From the NCBI RefSeq assembly GCF_020711255.1, contig NZ_JAJFAW010000012.1, positions 62,001 to 126,000 of the forward strand: a DNA stretch of 64,000 nt, read 5' to 3'. The DNA is from Hymenobacter plasmatis. GTDB lineage: Bacteria; Bacteroidota; Bacteroidia; Cytophagales; Hymenobacteraceae. Positions within the stretch are counted from its first letter, which is position 1, and every line of letters begins with the position of its first letter. The position numbers and the translations under genes were made by a program. Below are positions 1-62,777 of this stretch, in pieces. Below the pieces are notes generated by a model. It did not search any database and was not told where the DNA came from. It worked only from the letters and a program-made list of their open reading frames with translations.

Positions 1-731
1 GCCAGCAGGTGCACCATTTCTTCGTATTTGGCTTCGCCGTAGGTGGTCACTACCTGCTGCTTGCGCTCATCAGTGAGCATATAGCGGAGCATGCCCTCGC
101 CGTCGGCTTCGGGGTGAAATTGCGAGCCGAACACCTCCGGCGTGAAGCGAATGGCCATGATGGCGCGGGCCAGGGGTACGTGGGGCCGCTCTTTTTCCAG
201 GCACACCACTTCGGCGCCCAGCTCTTCGAGGCGGTTCATGTCGAGGTTGGTGAGCTGATAATCGCGCGAATCGACAATGTAGAACGGCTCGGGCAGGCCC
301 TGCAGCACAGGCTCGGCCAGGCCGGCCGAGGTGAGGTGCACGGGCAGCACGCCAAAGGAGGTGGACTTGCGCCGGCTCACTTCGCCCAAGCCGAGGTGCC
401 GGCTCACGAGCTGAAACGAGTGGCAAATGAGCAACAGGTGCTTTTTGTGGTCCTGGGTCTTGTTGTAGGCCAGCAGCGAATCGATGAATTCGAAGTAGCG
501 CGGCTCCCAGGCCTCGCCAGATTCCAGGGGGCTGCCGGGGCCGCCCGAGGAAATATAAATGTCGTAATCCAGCCCGGGCAAGGCATTTTCGGCGCGCACG
601 TTATAGGTGTCGACGGCAAACGGAACGCCGTTTTCTTCTGCGCCGCGGGCCAGCAACTGCCTGATGCAGCGCATGCCTTCGTTCGGCGCGTTGTTGTACA
701 TATCCAGAATCGCAATGCGAATAGCCTCCAT
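1..731 (-). CDS. Class I glutamine amidotransferase-like protein (3' end outside window)
   Basis: The frame is open from an ATG at 731 to the window edge (243 codons, no stop seen), so the C-terminus is missing. The protein has the class I glutamine amidotransferase layout: an SSGGPGSP oxyanion-type loop at about residues 61-68, a nucleophile-elbow-like ICHSFQ with Cys103, and a QFHPE motif carrying His206 and Glu208. All three catalytic residues are therefore present. By family it should release ammonia from glutamine or act on a related amide. It follows an esterase, an ATP-grasp ligase and a carboxylate-amine ligase on the same strand, which suggests it feeds nitrogen to that pathway, but a strong terminator at 798-834 separates it from them. 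Substrate unknown. Confidence 0.85.
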   Translation of the reverse strand, partial: MEAIRIAILDMYNNAPNEGMRCIRQLLARGAEENGVPFAVDTYNVRAENALPGLDYDIYISSGGPGSPLESGEAWEPRYFEFIDSLLAYNKTQDHKKHLLLICHSFQLVSRHLGLGEVSRRKSTSFGVLPVHLTSAGLAEPVLQGLPEPFYIVDSRDYQLTNLDMNRLEELGAEVVCLEKERPHVPLARAIMAIRFTPEVFGSQFHPEADGEGMLRYMLTDERKQQVVTTYGEAKYEEMVHLL

Positions 732-797
732 AGGGTAATCAAAATAAAAACTGCCAGCACCGCCAGCCGATAAACAAAGCTAAACCGTAGTTAAGGC

Positions 798-834
798 AAA
801 AAAAAGCAACGCCTGCCGTGACGGCGGGCGTTGC
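798..834 (-). terminator. Rho-independent terminator after the carboxylate-amine ligase gene
   Basis: Positions 806-834 form a stem of GCAACGCC with GGCGTTGC plus an inner GCCG/CGGC stem. On the minus strand it is followed by eight U residues (plus-strand A run 798-805). It lies 25 bases after the stop of the ligase gene and should end most transcription before the amidotransferase at 731. Confidence 0.85.
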
Positions 835-858
835 GTTAGCAAAGGTCGTTTACTTAAC

Positions 859-1962
859 TTATAGCCCGTGAGCGGTTTCGGCGAGGATATAGTCGACTAC
901 CTTGCTCAAATCGCCGGTTTCCCGGAAGACTTTGAGCTGGCGGTCGGCGCCGGTGCCCATCTCCATCATCGTCAATACGTATTCTACCTCGTGGCGGCTA
1001 CCTAAATCGTCGACAACGTCGTCAATAAAATCGAGGAGCTCCAAAATCAGCTTGCGGGTGGGCACCTCTTCCTGCTTGCCAAAGTCAATCATGTTGCCGT
1101 CGAGGCCGTAGCGGGCGGCGCGCCACTTGTTCTCCTTAATCAGAGCACTACGGTAAATGCGGAAGTTGAGGTTCTGCATTTTAAGCTTGTAAATCTTGGC
1201 CACCAGCGCCTGCATGATGGCCGCGATGCAGATGGTTTCGTCGGCGCGCATCATCATGTCGCAGATGCGGTACTCAATGGTGTCGAAAAAAGGGTGGAGC
1301 CGCAGGTCCCACCAGATTTTTTTGCCGTTGTCGATGCAGCCGGTCTTAATCAGCAGCTGCAAAAACTCGTCGTAGTCGCTGGCGCTGTGAAAGAAGCCTG
1401 GGATGCCCGTGCGCGGAAACCGCTCGAATATCTTGGTGCGAAACGACTTGTAGCCGGTTTCGCGCCCTTCCCAAAACGGCGAATTGGTGCTGAGCGCAAA
1501 TAAGTGCGGCAGGAAATACCGCAGCGCGTTCATCATGTACACGCCAATGTCGCGGTTTTCGATGCCCACGTGCACGTGCATGCCAAAAACAAGGTTGGAG
1601 CGAGCGGCTTCTTGCAGCTCCTCCACAATCTTGTCGTAGCGGACATCGGGCGTGATGGGCTGGTCTTGCCACCGCGAAAACGGGTGCGTGCCAGCCGCCC
1701 CGATTTTCAGGTTCTGCTTGTCGGCCAGCTCCATTACCTGACGGCGCAGGTGAAACACTTCGGTGCGCGCCTCGCCTATGTTGTGGCAAATATTAGTACC
1801 GACTTCCACCACGGCCTGGTGCATTTCGGCCTTCACCTGCTCCTGCAGGGTCACCCGGCCGCCTTCCACTATCTGAGATAGATGCGAGCGCAGTTCCCGG
1901 GTATCGGGGTCAATCGTCTGAAATTCTTCCTCGATGCCGAGGGTAAACGCGGGCATGGCCAT
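859..1962 (-). CDS. Carboxylate-amine ligase, GCS2/YbdK family
   Basis: This 367-residue protein belongs to the GCS2 (YbdK, glutamate-cysteine ligase family 2) group. It shows the N-terminal GIEEEF metal/ATP-site motif, a central MHVHVGI segment and a conserved WWDLRLHP stretch. Family members join a carboxylate to an amine using ATP; the EgtA/YbdK branch shows weak glutamate-cysteine ligase activity. The frame opens at a GTG at 1998, but the ATG at 1962 (MAMPAFTLGIEEEF) puts the motif at the usual distance from the start. It is third in a minus-strand series after an esterase and an ATP-grasp ligase, with an 89-base gap that contains a perfect hairpin. Two different amide-forming enzymes side by side suggest a small peptide-like product; substrates cannot be read from the sequence. 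Confidence 0.93.
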   Translation of the reverse strand: MAMPAFTLGIEEEFQTIDPDTRELRSHLSQIVEGGRVTLQEQVKAEMHQAVVEVGTNICHNIGEARTEVFHLRRQVMELADKQNLKIGAAGTHPFSRWQDQPITPDVRYDKIVEELQEAARSNLVFGMHVHVGIENRDIGVYMMNALRYFLPHLFALSTNSPFWEGRETGYKSFRTKIFERFPRTGIPGFFHSASDYDEFLQLLIKTGCIDNGKKIWWDLRLHPFFDTIEYRICDMMMRADETICIAAIMQALVAKIYKLKMQNLNFRIYRSALIKENKWRAARYGLDGNMIDFGKQEEVPTRKLILELLDFIDDVVDDLGSRHEVEYVLTMMEMGTGADRQLKVFRETGDLSKVVDYILAETAHGL

Positions 1963-2003
1963 AGACGGTGCGAATGGAAAGGGGAAAGGATGTTGCACTC
2001 AAA

Positions 2004-2029
2004 CCCGGCGCGCACAACGGCGCGCCGGG
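2004..2029 (-). promoter_or_regulatory. Perfect GC-rich hairpin between ATP-grasp and YbdK genes
   Basis: A 10-bp perfect inverted repeat (CCCGGCGCGC / GCGCGCCGGG) with a six-base loop lies between the ATP-grasp stop and the next start. On the minus strand it is followed only by TTTG, so it is more likely a partial terminator or RNA-stability hairpin than a full stop. Confidence 0.6.
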
Positions 2030-2051
2030 CTTAGCCAGACAGATAAGTAGC

Positions 2052-3176
2052 TTACTCGGCCTTCTTTGCCGCCGGCTTTTTCGCCGCAGCCTTAGGAGCA
2101 GCCGCTTTGGGAGCTGCGGCCTTTTGGGCCGCGGGCTTTGCCGCAGCAGGTTTGGCAGCAGCTTTAGGAGCTGCGGGCTTTTTGGGAGCAGGAGGGGTGT
2201 CGCCGACCGTGAAGTGGGTTACGCCGGCTTTGGCCCGGTGCGGGTGCACAAACGTGCCCCAGGTCAGGTTGTCCTCGCCGGGCTTCTGGGCAATGGCCCG
2301 GGCAATGGCCATGTTGGCGGCGGCTTCTACCACCCACTCGAAGTTCTTCTCGCCCACGGAGTTAATGTCGGCGTCGGGAGCGGGGTTGCCGAAGTCAATA
2401 GCAATCGGAATGCCGTCGCGTACCGCAAATTCTACCGTATTGAAGTCGTAGCCCAAGCCGGCGTTCAGCTTCAGCACGTAGTCCTTCATGGTGGCCAGTA
2501 GCTTCTCGCCCGCTTCGCCGGTGGTTTTCATCTCGGTGGCATAGCGCAGGTGCGGCTCGTTGCGGGGCTCGTAGGGCATGATGAGCACCTCGGTGCCGCC
2601 AATGCAGTAGCAACGGAAATAGTCGGTGAAGTCCACGGCTTCCTGGAAAAGCATCACCAGCTGGCCGGTTTCGTTGTAGGCCCGGAAAAATTCATCGGGC
2701 GAATTAACCTTGTACACGCTTTTCCAACCGCCGCCGGAGTGGGGCTTCATGTAGGCGGGGAAGCCAATGTGGGCAAAGGCCGCGTCCCAATCCATCATGT
2801 TGAGGTTGCGGAAGCTGCGCTCGCTGGTATCGGTGGGCCGCTCCTTGCTGGGCAGGAGCAGGGTTTTGGGCACGGGCACGCCGAGGCGCACGGCCAGCGC
2901 ATTGTTAAAGAATTTTTCGTCGGCCGACCACCAAAAAGGGTTGTTGATAACGGCCGTGCCCATTAGGGCCGCATTCTTGAGGTAAGCCCGGTAAAAGGGC
3001 ACGTCCTGCGAAATCCGGTCAATGATTACGGCGTAGTCGGGCGCTACGTGCTGCTCAACCTGGTCGATGCGCACGAACTCGGCGCGGATGTCGGCCGGTG
3101 CTTTCTCATTCACGCGGTCGATGAAAGCTTGGGGGAATGTGTTTTCCTGTCCGAAAAGGATGCCGATTTTTTTCAT
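2052..3176 (-). CDS. ATP-grasp ligase with Lys/Ala/Pro-rich C-terminal tail
   Basis: This 374-residue protein starts at MKKIGILFGQE; the longer open frame to 3278 has no family-like sequence before that ATG. Residues 1-310 resemble RimK/D-Ala-D-Ala ligase-type ATP-grasp enzymes: a Rossmann-like start, a YMKPHSGGGWKSVYKV nucleotide-binding region, and late metal/ATP residues in the FNTVEFAVRDG and IDFGNPAPDAD segments. The reaction expected is ATP-dependent amide formation through an acyl phosphate. The last 55 or so residues are a repeat of Lys, Ala and Pro (PKAAAKPAAAKPAAQKAA type) like histone H1 or AlgP tails, and are not part of the ATP-grasp fold. It sits between an esterase (59-base gap) and a GCS2-type ligase. 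Confidence 0.9.
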   Translation of the reverse strand: MKKIGILFGQENTFPQAFIDRVNEKAPADIRAEFVRIDQVEQHVAPDYAVIIDRISQDVPFYRAYLKNAALMGTAVINNPFWWSADEKFFNNALAVRLGVPVPKTLLLPSKERPTDTSERSFRNLNMMDWDAAFAHIGFPAYMKPHSGGGWKSVYKVNSPDEFFRAYNETGQLVMLFQEAVDFTDYFRCYCIGGTEVLIMPYEPRNEPHLRYATEMKTTGEAGEKLLATMKDYVLKLNAGLGYDFNTVEFAVRDGIPIAIDFGNPAPDADINSVGEKNFEWVVEAAANMAIARAIAQKPGEDNLTWGTFVHPHRAKAGVTHFTVGDTPPAPKKPAAPKAAAKPAAAKPAAQKAAAPKAAAPKAAAKKPAAKKAE

Positions 3177-3235
3177 GTTCTGGGGTGTGTTGGTAGCGGT
3201 GAAGCTAGGTGTGAAAGGATGAAGTAACGGGCGGC

Positions 3236-3943
3236 TTAGCCGATGGTGTTCAAGTACTGCGGAAACATTTCGCGCCACACGGGCCAGTCGTGGTCGCCGA
3301 AGGGCTTAACGTCCAGGGTGTAACGAATGCCCTTTTCGCTGAGGATGCGGGCGATTTCAAAGGTGGAATCTTTGCAGAAGTCGTGCTCGGCCGTGCCCAG
3401 GATGATGTTCATCCACTGGAAATGCTCGCTCTGCGCGCCCGGCAGGTACTCGGGCGGGTTGTTGTAATACACGTTGTCGTCGTGGTAGCCGTCCACAAAC
3501 TGGCGGATATCGAAGGCCGCGCCCATCGTAAATAGGTGGGCTACCTGGTTGGGATGGCGAAAGGCAAAATTCAGGGCATGATAGCCACCAAAGCTGCAGC
3601 CCGCCACGCCAATCTTATCCACGTTGCACTCCTGCTGGAGCATGGGCACCAGCTCCTCGCTCAAAAACTGGTCGTAGAACACGTGGTTTTGCACCCGGAT
3701 GGACGGGTGCAGGTGCTTGGCGTACCACGAAAACCGGTCGATGCTGTCGATGCAGTAGAGCTTGACGCGGCCGGCTTCAATCAACGGGCGCGCCGATTCA
3801 ATAAGTTGGAAGTCGCGGGCCTCGTTGATGCCGCCGCCAGAAGTAGGGAAAATGACAACCGGGTAGCCCCACTGGCCGAATACCAGCATGTCGATGTCTT
3901 GGCCAAGGTGGTGCGAGTAAAAGCGGCGGTGTTGTTCCTGCAC
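3236..3943 (-). CDS. Alpha/beta-hydrolase, putative esterase family
   Basis: A 235-residue protein of the putative esterase family (esterase D/PHB depolymerase-like). It has a nucleophile elbow GCSFGG with Ser117 and a late GDHDWPVW motif carrying the likely catalytic His; no signal peptide is seen, so it is probably cytoplasmic. The start is a GTG at 3943, giving MQEQHRRFYSHHLGQDIDM, which matches the usual start of this family, and no in-frame ATG lies upstream. It is the first gene of the minus-strand ligase series and is divergent from another esterase gene (4115-5647) over a short shared promoter region. It may trim or transfer the product of the two ligases; that is inference from position. 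Confidence 0.9.
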   Translation of the reverse strand: MQEQHRRFYSHHLGQDIDMLVFGQWGYPVVIFPTSGGGINEARDFQLIESARPLIEAGRVKLYCIDSIDRFSWYAKHLHPSIRVQNHVFYDQFLSEELVPMLQQECNVDKIGVAGCSFGGYHALNFAFRHPNQVAHLFTMGAAFDIRQFVDGYHDDNVYYNNPPEYLPGAQSEHFQWMNIILGTAEHDFCKDSTFEIARILSEKGIRYTLDVKPFGDHDWPVWREMFPQYLNTIG

Positions 3944-4114
3944 GGGAAGGGGGAAGTAAGGGTGAGGCGAAGAGCAGTTTTCAAGCTGTACGGCAAACTA
4001 GCAAAAAATAACGGTCCGGCCATATCCAGGTTGTCTGATTCAGCTTTTTAAGCTCAACTCATCCGCGAATCGTTACTTTGTTTAATGCTTACCGATACTC
4101 CCACTGTACTTACC

Positions 4115-5647
4115 ATGTCCACCGCCGTCCGGCTAGTTCGGGAAGTGCTGCCTTCCAGCTTCTTGGGGCGCGATGTGGAGCTGAGCATCCTGTTGCCACC
4201 AGCTTACGAGGAGGCTTCGGGCCCGTACCCAGTCCTGTACCTGAACGATGGGCAGGACCTGGAGCGGCTAAATTTCCAAGCCACGCTCGATGAGCTGTAT
4301 GCCCGCCACGCGGTTCAGCCTTTCCTGGTAGTGGCCATGCACGCCAACGAGCAGCGCAAGCACGAATACGGTACGGCCACTCACGCCGACTACGACGGGC
4401 GCGGCGACTTGGCTGGGGCATATTCCCAGTTTGTACTTGAAGAGGTATTGCCTTTTGCTCAAGCTACTTACCAGGCCTCACCCAACCCCGCCCACGCCGT
4501 GATGGCGGGTTTTTCGCTCGGCGGCTTGTCGGCGTTCGATTTGGTGTGGCATCACCCCGATGCTTTTACACGGGCTGGCGTGTTCTCGGGCTCCTTCTGG
4601 TGGCGGCAGCGGGCCGTAGGAGCGGGCTATACGCCTTCCGACCGCATCATGCACGGCCTGGTGCGGGCCCGGCACCCGCATCCGAGCCACCGTTTCTGGC
4701 TGCAAAGCGGCACCCTCGACGAGCACAACGACCGCAACCAAAACGGCGTCATCGACTCAGTAGAAGACTGCCTGGATTTGATTGAGGAGCTGATTAAAGT
4801 TGGGCTGGACGTGCGCCAGGCCCTGCGCTACGTGCAAGTAGAAGGCGGGCATCACCACCCCGATACCTGGGGCCGCGTAATGCCCGACTTCCTGATTTGG
4901 GCATTTGGGCAGGAGGGAAGCGCTGCCGCGCTGCCGGCTCCTTTGCCCGTGGTGCGCCTACAGTTTGACCCCGATTTGGCACCTTCCATTCTGCCGCCCA
5001 CGGCAGAGGTAGTTGAGCCAGTTGCTCCGGCGCCGCTGGTGCTGCCAGAAACTTTCGCGCCGTCCGTGCAAACGCTTCACCTCAGTTCCCCCCTTACCGC
5101 CATTTCATCGCATTCCACCATGCCTATTGCCCGTCCTGCCGAAGGGGATTTCTTGCCCTACGCTTCCACCTACATCAATCAGGTGCCCGAAGGCGCCGAC
5201 CCGCGAGAGGCTCTGCGGGCCATTGCACCGGAATTGCACGCCATCTTCGAAAACCTGAGCGAAGCACAGGCCGAAAAAGGCTACGCCGACGGCAAGTGGA
5301 CGCTCAAGGAAATGCTGCAGCACCAGATTGACACGGAGCGCATTTTTGCCTACCGCGCCATGCGCTTTGCCCGTGGCGACAGCCAAGACCTGCCCGGTTT
5401 CGACCAGGACAACTACGTAGCTCAGAGTGGGGCCAACGCCCGTACCGTAGCCAGCCTCTTGGCCGAGTACGACGCCACCCGCGCCTCCACTCAGGCCCTT
5501 TTCGACAGCTTCACCGACGAGCAGCTCGACCGCCGTGGCACGGCCAATGGCGGCCCGGCCACCGTGCGGGCGCTGCTCTACATTGTGCCCGGCCACGAGC
5601 TGCACCACCTCAACATCATCCGCGAGCGGTACCTGCCCGTGCTGTAG
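4115..5647 (+). CDS. Fusion of Fes-like esterase and DinB-family domain
   Basis: About 510 residues with two unrelated domains. Residues 1-280 are an enterochelin-esterase-like alpha/beta hydrolase with GFSLGG (Ser about 134) and a late GGHHHPDTW His motif. Residues 335-510 are a DinB/YfiT-type four-helix domain beginning MPIARPAEGDFLPY, with metal-type His residues in MLQHQIDTER and PGHELHHLN. The linker is Pro/Val/Ala-rich. An in-frame ATG at 5120 marks where a separate DinB gene would start, so this is a real gene fusion or a sequencing join; no stop lies between the halves. An alternative start is the ATG at 4085, but TTACTTTG just before it looks like a -7 box, which favours 4115. It diverges from the ligase cluster. 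Confidence 0.88.
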   Translation: MSTAVRLVREVLPSSFLGRDVELSILLPPAYEEASGPYPVLYLNDGQDLERLNFQATLDELYARHAVQPFLVVAMHANEQRKHEYGTATHADYDGRGDLAGAYSQFVLEEVLPFAQATYQASPNPAHAVMAGFSLGGLSAFDLVWHHPDAFTRAGVFSGSFWWRQRAVGAGYTPSDRIMHGLVRARHPHPSHRFWLQSGTLDEHNDRNQNGVIDSVEDCLDLIEELIKVGLDVRQALRYVQVEGGHHHPDTWGRVMPDFLIWAFGQEGSAAALPAPLPVVRLQFDPDLAPSILPPTAEVVEPVAPAPLVLPETFAPSVQTLHLSSPLTAISSHSTMPIARPAEGDFLPYASTYINQVPEGADPREALRAIAPELHAIFENLSEAQAEKGYADGKWTLKEMLQHQIDTERIFAYRAMRFARGDSQDLPGFDQDNYVAQSGANARTVASLLAEYDATRASTQALFDSFTDEQLDRRGTANGGPATVRALLYIVPGHELHHLNIIRERYLPVL

Positions 5648-5974: not shown

Positions 5975-6107
5975 GTCATGCAGAGCGCAGCGAAGCATCT
6001 TTACCGCTTCGTTGCAAACCATCTGTCATGCTGACGAAGGAAGCATCTTCTCAGGTCAGCACGACTCGTTCAGCGGGGATAAGATGCTTCGCTGCGCTCT
6101 GCATGAC
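5975..6107. repeat. R1 palindromic repeat element, copy 1
   Basis: Perfect 27-bp inverted arms at 5975-6001 and 6081-6107 share the core GTCATGCAGAGCGCAGCG and AAGCATCTT. A third, degenerate copy lies inside at about 6024-6050. A related element sits at 57506-57602, so this is a dispersed intergenic repeat of REP or MITE type. No gene is seen in 5870-6151. Confidence 0.85.
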
Positions 6108-6151: not shown

Positions 6152-6778
6152 CTACAGCGTGTAGTAGGGTTCCTTTTCCTTGTCGTGATGGCGGATATAG
6201 CCGTGCAGCACCAGCTTTATCAAGGTTTGATAAGCCCGACGCTTGCCGAAATTCACGAGCTTCATAAACTGCCCCAGCGTGATACGCGGATGGCTTTTCA
6301 AGTAGTCAATCACCGCCAGCTCCTGTTTGTTGAGCGGGATTTTTTCGAAGCGTGATTCGGGCTGTTGGCGTTCCATTACCTTTTCGGTGAGGCCACTGGT
6401 TTGGACACTAGCATCACGCACGCGGACGTAGCCGCGCCAGTCGCCGGGCGCCACCTGGGCGCGGTGGGGTTTGTTCAGGCTTTCGGGCACGGTGACCACC
6501 AGCACGGTGCGGCCGTCTTCTTCTATTTCGAGAAAGTGCAGGGTAGTGAGGGGCGGCTGGATGTAATGTTGGGCTGCTTCGCGCAGTACAAAAAGTTCTT
6601 CTTCGGTGTCGCGAACACCCACCACGCGGCCCAGGTCGTCGACGCCCACGAGGACTTGCCCGCCGCGGGTGTTGGCCAACGAAACCAGCGTGCGCGAAAT
6701 TCGGTGCGGGTGCGTGGTTTTCTGCTTGAATTCCAACTCTTCGCCCTCGCCGCGTGCAATTAGCTCGAATAAATCCAT
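6152..6778 (-). CDS. AlbA_2/Schlafen-type DNA-binding protein
   Basis: A 208-residue protein. Residues 1-120 match the AlbA_2 (Schlafen-like) domain: GEGEELEFKQKT near the start, LANTRGGQVLVGVDDLGRVVGV in the middle, and a later GYVRVRDAS strand. Residues 140-208 form a small winged-helix-like tail (LNKQELAVIDYLKSHPRITLGQFMKLVNFGKRRAYQTLIKLV). Proteins of this type usually act as DNA-binding regulators. It stands alone with a shared terminator upstream. Target genes are unknown. Confidence 0.85.
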   Translation of the reverse strand: MDLFELIARGEGEELEFKQKTTHPHRISRTLVSLANTRGGQVLVGVDDLGRVVGVRDTEEELFVLREAAQHYIQPPLTTLHFLEIEEDGRTVLVVTVPESLNKPHRAQVAPGDWRGYVRVRDASVQTSGLTEKVMERQQPESRFEKIPLNKQELAVIDYLKSHPRITLGQFMKLVNFGKRRAYQTLIKLVLHGYIRHHDKEKEPYYTL

Positions 6779-61712: not shown

Positions 61713-62777
61713 ATGACAGCTCCACTTGCCGGCAAGAACGGAAAACACCACCGCGACATTGTGGTAATTGGAGCCTCCTCGGGCGGTGTCTCGGCGCTGC
61801 TGGAGCTGGTCAAAACCCTGCCGGCCGACTTCCCGGCGCCCATTTTTGTGGTACAGCACGTGGCGCCCGACTCTCCCAGCATCCTGCCGCAGCTGCTCAG
61901 CTCGGTATCGGCCCTGCCGGCGCGACACCCGCAGAACGGCGAAACCGTGGAGCCCGGCGTGATTTACGTGGCCCGGCCCGACCACCACCTGCTGCTGGAA
62001 GGCAATAAGGTGCTCGTGACGCGGGGCCCGAAGGAAAACCGGTTCCGGCCGTCTATCGATGCGCTGTTTCGTTCGGCCGCGTACACCTACGGCCCGCGCG
62101 TGATTGGCGTGGTGCTCACGGGCTACCTCGACGACGGCACTTCCGGCCTCTGGAGCGTGCAGCGCATGGGTGGGCTGGCCATCGTGCAGGACCCGGCCGA
62201 TGCGCAGTCGCCGGCCATGCCCACCAACGCGCTAGAGTTTGTCAAAGCCGACTACGTCGTGCCGCTCGCGGAGCTGGGCTCGCTGCTGGTGCGCCTCACC
62301 CTGCAGGCCGCTCCTGCCAAAACCCACCTCCCGGCCGCTGAGCTGGACCTGCTCCAGGTGGAGCTGACCATTGCCAAGCAGGGCGGCGGGTTCGAGCTGG
62401 GCATCATCGAGAAGGGCAAGCTCACGCCCTTCACCTGCCCCGACTGCCACGGCGCGCTCACCCAGCTTATCGAAGGCAAGCTGATTCGCTACCGCTGCCA
62501 CACCGGCCACGCCTACTCTTTGAGTGCGTTGCTAGGCGAGGTCACGGCCTCGGTAGAAAGCATGCTTTACCAGTCCATGCGCGGGCTGGAGGAAACCAAA
62601 ATGCTCCTGCAAAGCCTCGGCCAGCACTTTTTGCAAGACAAACAGGATGACGTAGCCCAGCTGTTTTTCCATAAAGCCGACGAAACCGGCCGGCAAGCCC
62701 GGGTGGTGTACGAGTCCATCCTGCATCACGAATCCCTCAGCGGGGACCTGCAGTTTCAGAAAAAGAAGTTGGGCTAA
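61713..62777 (+). CDS. CheB-type methylesterase without receiver, with zinc-ribbon-like tail
   Basis: 354 residues. Residues 14-190 are a CheB methylesterase domain with catalytic Ser22 (GASSGGVSAL), His49 (VVQHVAP) and Asp141 (LTGYLDDGTSGL). No receiver domain precedes it. The C-terminal part has CPDCHGAL and RYRCHTGHAYS, which could bind zinc, then a helical stretch. Such proteins demethylate receptors or act in sensory signalling; no chemotaxis genes are in view. It ends four bases before the convergent DUF4112 gene. Confidence 0.92.
   Translation: MTAPLAGKNGKHHRDIVVIGASSGGVSALLELVKTLPADFPAPIFVVQHVAPDSPSILPQLLSSVSALPARHPQNGETVEPGVIYVARPDHHLLLEGNKVLVTRGPKENRFRPSIDALFRSAAYTYGPRVIGVVLTGYLDDGTSGLWSVQRMGGLAIVQDPADAQSPAMPTNALEFVKADYVVPLAELGSLLVRLTLQAAPAKTHLPAAELDLLQVELTIAKQGGGFELGIIEKGKLTPFTCPDCHGALTQLIEGKLIRYRCHTGHAYSLSALLGEVTASVESMLYQSMRGLEETKMLLQSLGQHFLQDKQDDVAQLFFHKADETGRQARVVYESILHHESLSGDLQFQKKKLG

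Follow-up and report, generated by a model that had tools for sequence, protein, structure and literature searches.

The described systems closest to the locus considered here are glutathione biosynthesis, in which a GCS2-type glutamate-cysteine ligase is paired with a eukaryotic-type glutathione synthetase, the Escherichia coli proteins YgiC/YjfC and GspS (glutathionylspermidine synthetase/amidase), the E. coli ligase YbdK and gamma-glutamyl peptidase 1 from Arabidopsis. Operons combining ATP-grasp and GCS2 ligases reportedly also figure in an amidoligase survey made by Iyer and colleagues in 2009. This row lies at the start of a 64,000-nucleotide stretch of Hymenobacter plasmatis DNA (positions 62,001 to 126,000 of contig NZ_JAJFAW010000012.1; hereafter the window, G000:C3:62001-126000). 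It includes three ligases (ATPgA, GCS2 and ATPgB), a class I glutamine amidotransferase (GATase)-fold protein called GAT, and two esterases of the alpha/beta hydrolase type (EST1 and EST2). Like the glutathione pathway, it combines a GCS2-family member with a nearby ligase that has the glutathione-synthetase fold, but it differs in its third ligase, its GATase-fold protein and its two esterases. The observations presented below support the view that these genes form an amidoligase-type cluster, conserved and inherited together, which may serve gamma-glutamyl peptide chemistry. The enzyme families are known and so is the idea of amidoligase operons; the row itself is undescribed in our literature search, which covered subscription journals thinly and in which no account of it was recognised. 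Graspetides were considered as a candidate and rejected: the part of PMC8939145 that was available contains neither GCS2 nor GATase, Hymenobacter or Spirosoma.

The list of open reading frames and family scans give a minus-strand transcription order of EST2, ATPgA, GCS2, GAT and then ATPgB, with EST1 divergent on the plus strand; the part of the row past the left edge of the window was read from the adjoining contig DNA. An earlier interpretation of the same stretch, made without database searches (the sequence-only reading), had placed an ATP-grasp ligase, a GCS2/YbdK ligase, a class I amidotransferase and alpha/beta hydrolases side by side, and both the open reading frames and the family scans confirm this. 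It had counted two ligases; there are three, since ATPgB is encoded beyond the window edge. The DinB domain fused to EST1 had also escaped it.

Each protein was searched against 198 Bacteroidota genomes. ATPgA is present in 72, GCS2 in 62, ATPgB in 60 and GAT in 50, and all three ligases occur together in 54, scattered in some of them. The GAT count was obtained after removal of 5 weak of 55 genomes, while 28 weak of 40 genomes were removed for a circularly permuted ATP-grasp protein described below and second, weak matches were removed for ATPgA (2) and GCS2 (3). Three of the 72 ATPgA genomes carry only a divergent copy (34–42% identity), and in one genome (G066) ATPgB is split by a contig end and only its smaller, adjacent piece was entered. 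For EST2, 43 of 95 genomes were entered (the top 40 rows and 3 lower rows chosen for adjacency) and, since these rows were selected, EST2 co-occurrence is not used as evidence. ATPgA and GCS2 lie at most 2.5 kb apart on the same strand in 38 of the 58 genomes that share them, as do GAT and ATPgB in 27 of 39. The five-gene row is found in 16 of the 72 ATPgA genomes, and in 19 none of the other searched genes is nearby.

Kinship is the obvious confounder of such counts, and gene presence was therefore shuffled within families (20,000 shuffles), using all 15 families in which presence varies (86 genomes); Fisher values for the 198-genome counts take no account of kinship and are left aside. Here, 36 genomes have all three ligases, 38 have none and 12 have a partial set. 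The ligases are thus all-or-none in 74 of the 86, whereas the shuffles average 34.5 such genomes and never exceed 50; with GAT included, the figure is 63 (shuffled mean 18.6, maximum 30). An earlier test restricted to six hand-picked families gave 52 of 54 genomes as all-or-none for four genes (mean 13.9, maximum 25), but was replaced because those families omit most of the partial genomes. The result for 15 families is weaker than that for six but still far beyond the shuffles. Rare co-occurrence of the genes, which the sequence-only reading had named as the outcome that would undo the cluster, is therefore not what these genomes display.

Gene order was also followed in a sample consisting of the best 80 of at least 578 matches in a named genome collection, which is biased to near relatives. 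Among its 60 loci of at least 12 kb, the whole six-gene arrangement, EST1(-) EST2 ATPgA GCS2 GAT ATPgB, is present in 43 and the five-gene core in 53. The matches listed include Cytophagales, Mucilaginibacter, Pedobacter, Flavobacteriaceae, Saprospiraceae and one Ignavibacteriales bin, and the nearest named ATPgA among them is that of Hymenobacter terricola (93% identical). A search of 72,556 plasmids gave no ATPgA match at E 1e-5. Three plasmid records (one Spirosoma, two Paracoccus) were inspected out of the 73 with a GCS2 match, and their incomplete gene tables annotate no ATP-grasp or GATase gene within 5 kb.

GCS2 (859..1998, minus strand) is a GCS2/YbdK carboxylate-amine ligase of the PRK13515 family, scoring 214 bits against PF04107 and 544.5 bits against NCBIfam PRK13515, above the cut-off of 371. 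It resembles E. coli YbdK over nearly its full length (2e-66) and plant glutamate-cysteine ligase only weakly. It differs from YbdK, however, in falling under the cut-off of the YbdK equivalog PRK13516 and in belonging to a multi-ligase operon. From these similarities, it is probably a gamma-glutamyl-X ligase.

ATPgA (2052..3176, minus strand, 374 amino acids) is a RimK-like ATP-grasp ligase. It scores 32.5 bits (E 5e-8) against the RimK family TIGR00768, far under the cut-off of 143.4, and is thus regarded as an ATP-grasp relative rather than classed as RimK; no Pfam match was obtained at E ≤ 0.001. Residues K144, E249, D261 and N264 are invariant across 34 aligned sequences and are those which we take to be the expected ATP-grasp lysine and metal-site residues. 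In H. plasmatis, the protein ends in a histone-like tail rich in lysine, alanine and proline (window 2052–2200), which is lysine-rich in some relatives and missing from others. Assignment to the R2K clade of ATP-grasp proteins was rejected (E 0.013 only); the available part of the R2K paper (PMC4431377) does not use the words GCS2, hydrolase or Bacteroidetes. The available part of PMC11036162 describes an induced RimK-type ligase in Maribacter, which was not matched to ATPgA.

The third ligase, ATPgB (L002:8682-9872, minus strand, 396 amino acids), starts 34 bases downstream of GAT. Its sequence carries a minimal signal (Pfam GSP_synth, E 0.05, 13.2 bits for a cut-off of 29.3; YgiC, E 0.009) and, being under the GSP_synth cut-off, it is not classed as GspS. 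Its AlphaFold2 model (predicted local distance difference test, pLDDT, 92.7) has the glutathione/glutathionylspermidine synthetase fold over its whole length. In the VIA structure comparison, 23 entries lie at Z 19.5–25.1 over 326–368 residues and the next two at 13.0 and 8.6. The best scores include those of YgiC (25.1), glutathionylspermidine synthetase (24.4), human glutathione synthetase (24.1) and trypanothione synthetase (21.9), with YjfC and homoglutathione synthetase also among the matches, and Foldseek concurs. ATPgB thus shares its predicted fold with YgiC/YjfC and GspS (330–346 aligned residues, Z 24–25) but lacks the amidase domain of GspS. It is short for a member of the glutathione pathway and only 7–16% identical to the 23 superfamily structures. 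In this genome, ATPgB is followed by a DUF1232 gene. In 13 loci (L074, L075, L078, L081, L082, L083, L086, L087, L089, L092, L093, L094 and L097), a class III aminotransferase gene follows it on the same strand after no more than 200 bases, and in four further loci such a gene lies 1–1.4 kb farther on.

GAT is a 274-amino-acid protein on the minus strand, whose gene occupies 1..731 and ends beyond the window (full gene L002:9907-10731). It scores 42 bits against PF00117 (cut-off 22.8), and its predicted Cys-His-Glu triad, C103, H206 and E208, is invariant in all 36 aligned sequences. The model (pLDDT 95.2) has a single-domain GATase fold, as does Arabidopsis gamma-glutamyl peptidase 1, which Foldseek ranks first (E 1.3e-13) with true GATases also among the top matches. 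The likeness goes with 14–17% identity, and VIA in effect ties the GATase 1o1y (Z 22.1), homoserine succinyltransferase (22.0) and gamma-glutamyl peptidase (21.3). On its modelled structure, GAT is likely to be either a gamma-glutamyl peptidase or a glutaminase.

The two hydrolases frame the start of the row. EST2 (3236..3943, minus strand; PF00756, 43 bits), its first gene, has S117, D188 and H218 invariant in 22 sequences. The divergent EST1 (4085..5647, plus strand) is a fusion of an esterase domain (PF00756, 103 bits, residues 24–268) with a DinB domain (DinB_2, 84 bits, residues 380–512). PF00756 also includes S-formylglutathione hydrolase. Of the 101 loci examined, 18 have a DinB domain attached. 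In 13, all from Hymenobacter and including that of the window, it is fused to EST1; in the other five, from Larkinella/Spirosoma, it is encoded by its own gene between EST2 and ATPgA. Two of these five separate proteins were compared with the domain of the window and are 21 and 24% identical to it, and every one of the 18 domains has H413, H504 and H508 (numbered as in the window). To judge from the family names in the profile scans, some DinB proteins are thiol S-transferases. The one PADLOC match is weak (E 0.0018) and falls in the DinB part of the fusion.

We give an even chance to the interpretation that the operon ensures the cytosolic synthesis and turnover of a gamma-glutamyl oligopeptide, a glutathione-like small molecule. 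GCS2 would begin the pathway in the way that glutathione synthesis begins, by bonding an amine to the gamma-carboxylate of glutamate; ATPgB would extend or cap the resulting dipeptide and ATPgA would form one more amide bond. GAT would take off the gamma-glutamyl group in turnover or maturation, the esterases would split adducts joined by ester or thioester bonds, and the DinB domain, in loci that have one, would handle the conjugate. What is observed is the gene order, the co-inheritance, the predicted folds of ATPgB and GAT and the conservation of residues where catalytic ones are expected; all substrates, the order in which the enzymes act, their place in the cytosol (by eye, they have no signal peptide) and a small product rather than a protein tag are what we infer.

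Several observations weigh against this interpretation. A fold alone does not give a substrate, and the VIA tie leaves GAT equally close to enzymes of other activities. Twelve of the 86 mixed-family genomes have an incomplete ligase set, and in four genomes of one family (f8) ATPgA, ATPgB and GAT are kept and GCS2 is gone. In 11 genomes, the circularly permuted ATP-grasp gene stands between ATPgA and GAT (of three such proteins scanned, two are over the Pfam CP_ATPgrasp_2 cut-off and one under). All 11 lack ATPgB, 7 also lack GCS2 and the other 4 have a GCS2 homologue elsewhere. The gamma-glutamyl ligase may therefore not be essential, and the evidence that other ligases can do the chemistry weakens the claim that glutamate always comes first. 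As to DinB, 83 of the 101 loci show none and such genes are common, with 13 in this genome, from which we judge chance placement at this locus unlikely, though not impossible. Finally, BshC is encoded in 196 of the 198 genomes, so that bacillithiol is probably available to these cells, which may have no need of a second thiol.

The strongest competitor, which is possible though on the whole unlikely, keeps GCS2 and ATPgA as the enzymes that build the peptide but casts GAT as a glutaminase from which ammonia would be channelled to ATPgB, the pair amidating the carboxylate of the peptide. The median gap between GAT and ATPgB is the smallest in the row (11 bases, 69 loci), as would be expected of an ammonia-supplying pair, which also tells against a purely hydrolytic GAT. 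They are neighbours in the 27 of 39 genomes mentioned above and stay paired in some broken clusters (G190, G091 and G150, for example), and GAT also follows an ATP-grasp gene in the rows with the permuted ligase. The kept triad, the nearly invariant Q107 and the true GATases among the structural matches are consistent with this role. On the other side, GAT and ATPgB are apart in 12 of the 39 shared genomes and do not always go together, GAT being present in 39 of the 60 ATPgB genomes and 11 of the 50 GAT genomes having the permuted ATP-grasp instead of ATPgB. This imperfect co-occurrence lowers the likelihood that GAT belongs to an amidating complex, though it may have that role where both are present. 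GAT is also missing from 20 of the 54 three-ligase genomes, where free ammonia could nevertheless serve. In two of these GAT-less genomes (G055 and G093), an M29 aminopeptidase occupies its slot between GCS2 and ATPgB. When 40 chosen genomes were searched for this peptidase, six matched, and only these two did so at 62% identity or more; the other matches, including a second copy in G093, are 27–32% identical. The aminopeptidase in the GAT slot favours hydrolysis over ammonia supply, from two genomes only, as does the first rank of gamma-glutamyl peptidase in Foldseek, and the tight pairing with ATPgB favours the ammonia view; both therefore stand. The sequence-only reading had presented GAT as the ammonia supplier outright, and as such the proposal finds no support.

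A more specific form of the gamma-glutamyl peptide reading, which we think improbable, is that the operon makes and recycles an undescribed glutathione-like thiol peptide, used by the DinB S-transferases, the thioesterases and the gamma-glutamyl peptidase, and forming a second thiol system of Bacteroidota beside the bacillithiol gene. The idea of a thiol comes mainly from the recurrent DinB link. Two markers were tried and rejected. Bacillithiol cannot discriminate because the near universality of BshC leaves no contrast, and canonical GshB (PF02955 above a split that we placed where the scores drop from 173 to 97 bits) is found in 12 of the 198 genomes, of which 3 carry all three ligases, so that no exclusion is seen.

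It is distinctly less probable that ATPgB links the gamma-glutamyl peptide to a polyamine, as in glutathionylspermidine or trypanothione, to be released by the hydrolases. The synthetases of both compounds are among its structural neighbours, but YgiC, YjfC and glutathione synthetase match it about as well, and ATPgB lacks an additional amidase domain. The class III aminotransferase that follows ATPgB in 13 loci would fit with this role, since a relative (from L072, the sole member scanned by Pfam and NCBIfam) scores against putrescine aminotransferase. Its best scores, however, are with acetylornithine models, all of these are below cut-off, and the gene is missing from most loci. Tagging of a protein or peptide, to which ATPgA would add residues and from which GAT and the esterases would remove them, is very improbable: RimK-type enzymes modify proteins and the ATPgA tail is lysine-rich in several genomes, but this tail is missing in several orthologues and, among open reading frames of at least 90 amino acids in the best 80 of at least 578 loci, no small gene recurs in the operon save the DinB gene in five.

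The gap between GCS2 and GAT contains an intrinsic-terminator-like hairpin with a tail of eight U (798..834, minus strand; hairpin 806–834). The stretch 792–850 folds at -22.3 kcal/mol (z -3.79) and none of 200 shuffles is equally stable; a general terminator scan of the region omitted this hairpin, its 11 matches being about as many as expected (11.3). Among loci with a GCS2-GAT gap of at least 30 bases, a terminator-like structure is present in 9 of 14 from Hymenobacter and in 1 of 47 others. Promoter-like matches are present in chance number, and both of those on the minus strand are inside GAT. The terminator noticed in the sequence-only reading is therefore upheld as a structure, but the separate control of GAT that was deduced from it, given its largely Hymenobacter distribution and promoter-like matches at chance, is at most a local feature.

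In some genomes that lack GAT, the scattered ligases have recurring neighbours of their own: a serine carboxypeptidase of family S10 beside GCS2 (L134-L137), an amidohydrolase beside ATPgB (L138-L140 and L150) and an aromatic amino-acid lyase beside ATPgA (L142). One protein of each kind was named by Pfam and the rest by clustering. Genome G137 has a distant permuted ATP-grasp (37% identical; L152:3681-5243) beside a semialdehyde dehydrogenase, with ATPgA on another contig.

In the window, the cluster adjoins a gene with a Schlafen/AlbA_2 domain (6152–6778), a neighbour also found in 9 of 13 Hymenobacter loci; two of the remaining four loci are short. Between it and EST1-DinB, downstream of the latter, CATGCAGAGCGCAGCGAAGCATCT and its complement form a perfect inverted repeat whose 24-base arms are 81 bases apart (5977–6105). 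It has no further copy in the window at up to 3 mismatches (chance expectation 0) and looks like a palindromic element of the REP (repetitive extragenic palindromic) or MITE (miniature inverted-repeat transposable element) kind.

Roughly one in four genomes of a broad sample of Bacteroidota thus carries a co-inherited three-ligase set. The folds point to gamma-glutamyl peptide chemistry, and what was a vague amidoligase cluster thereby becomes a pathway that can be tested on named substrates, namely glutamate together with cysteine, a different amino acid or a polyamine. Should the operon make a thiol or conjugating cofactor, this would be of importance to the redox and detoxification biology of these bshC-bearing bacteria.

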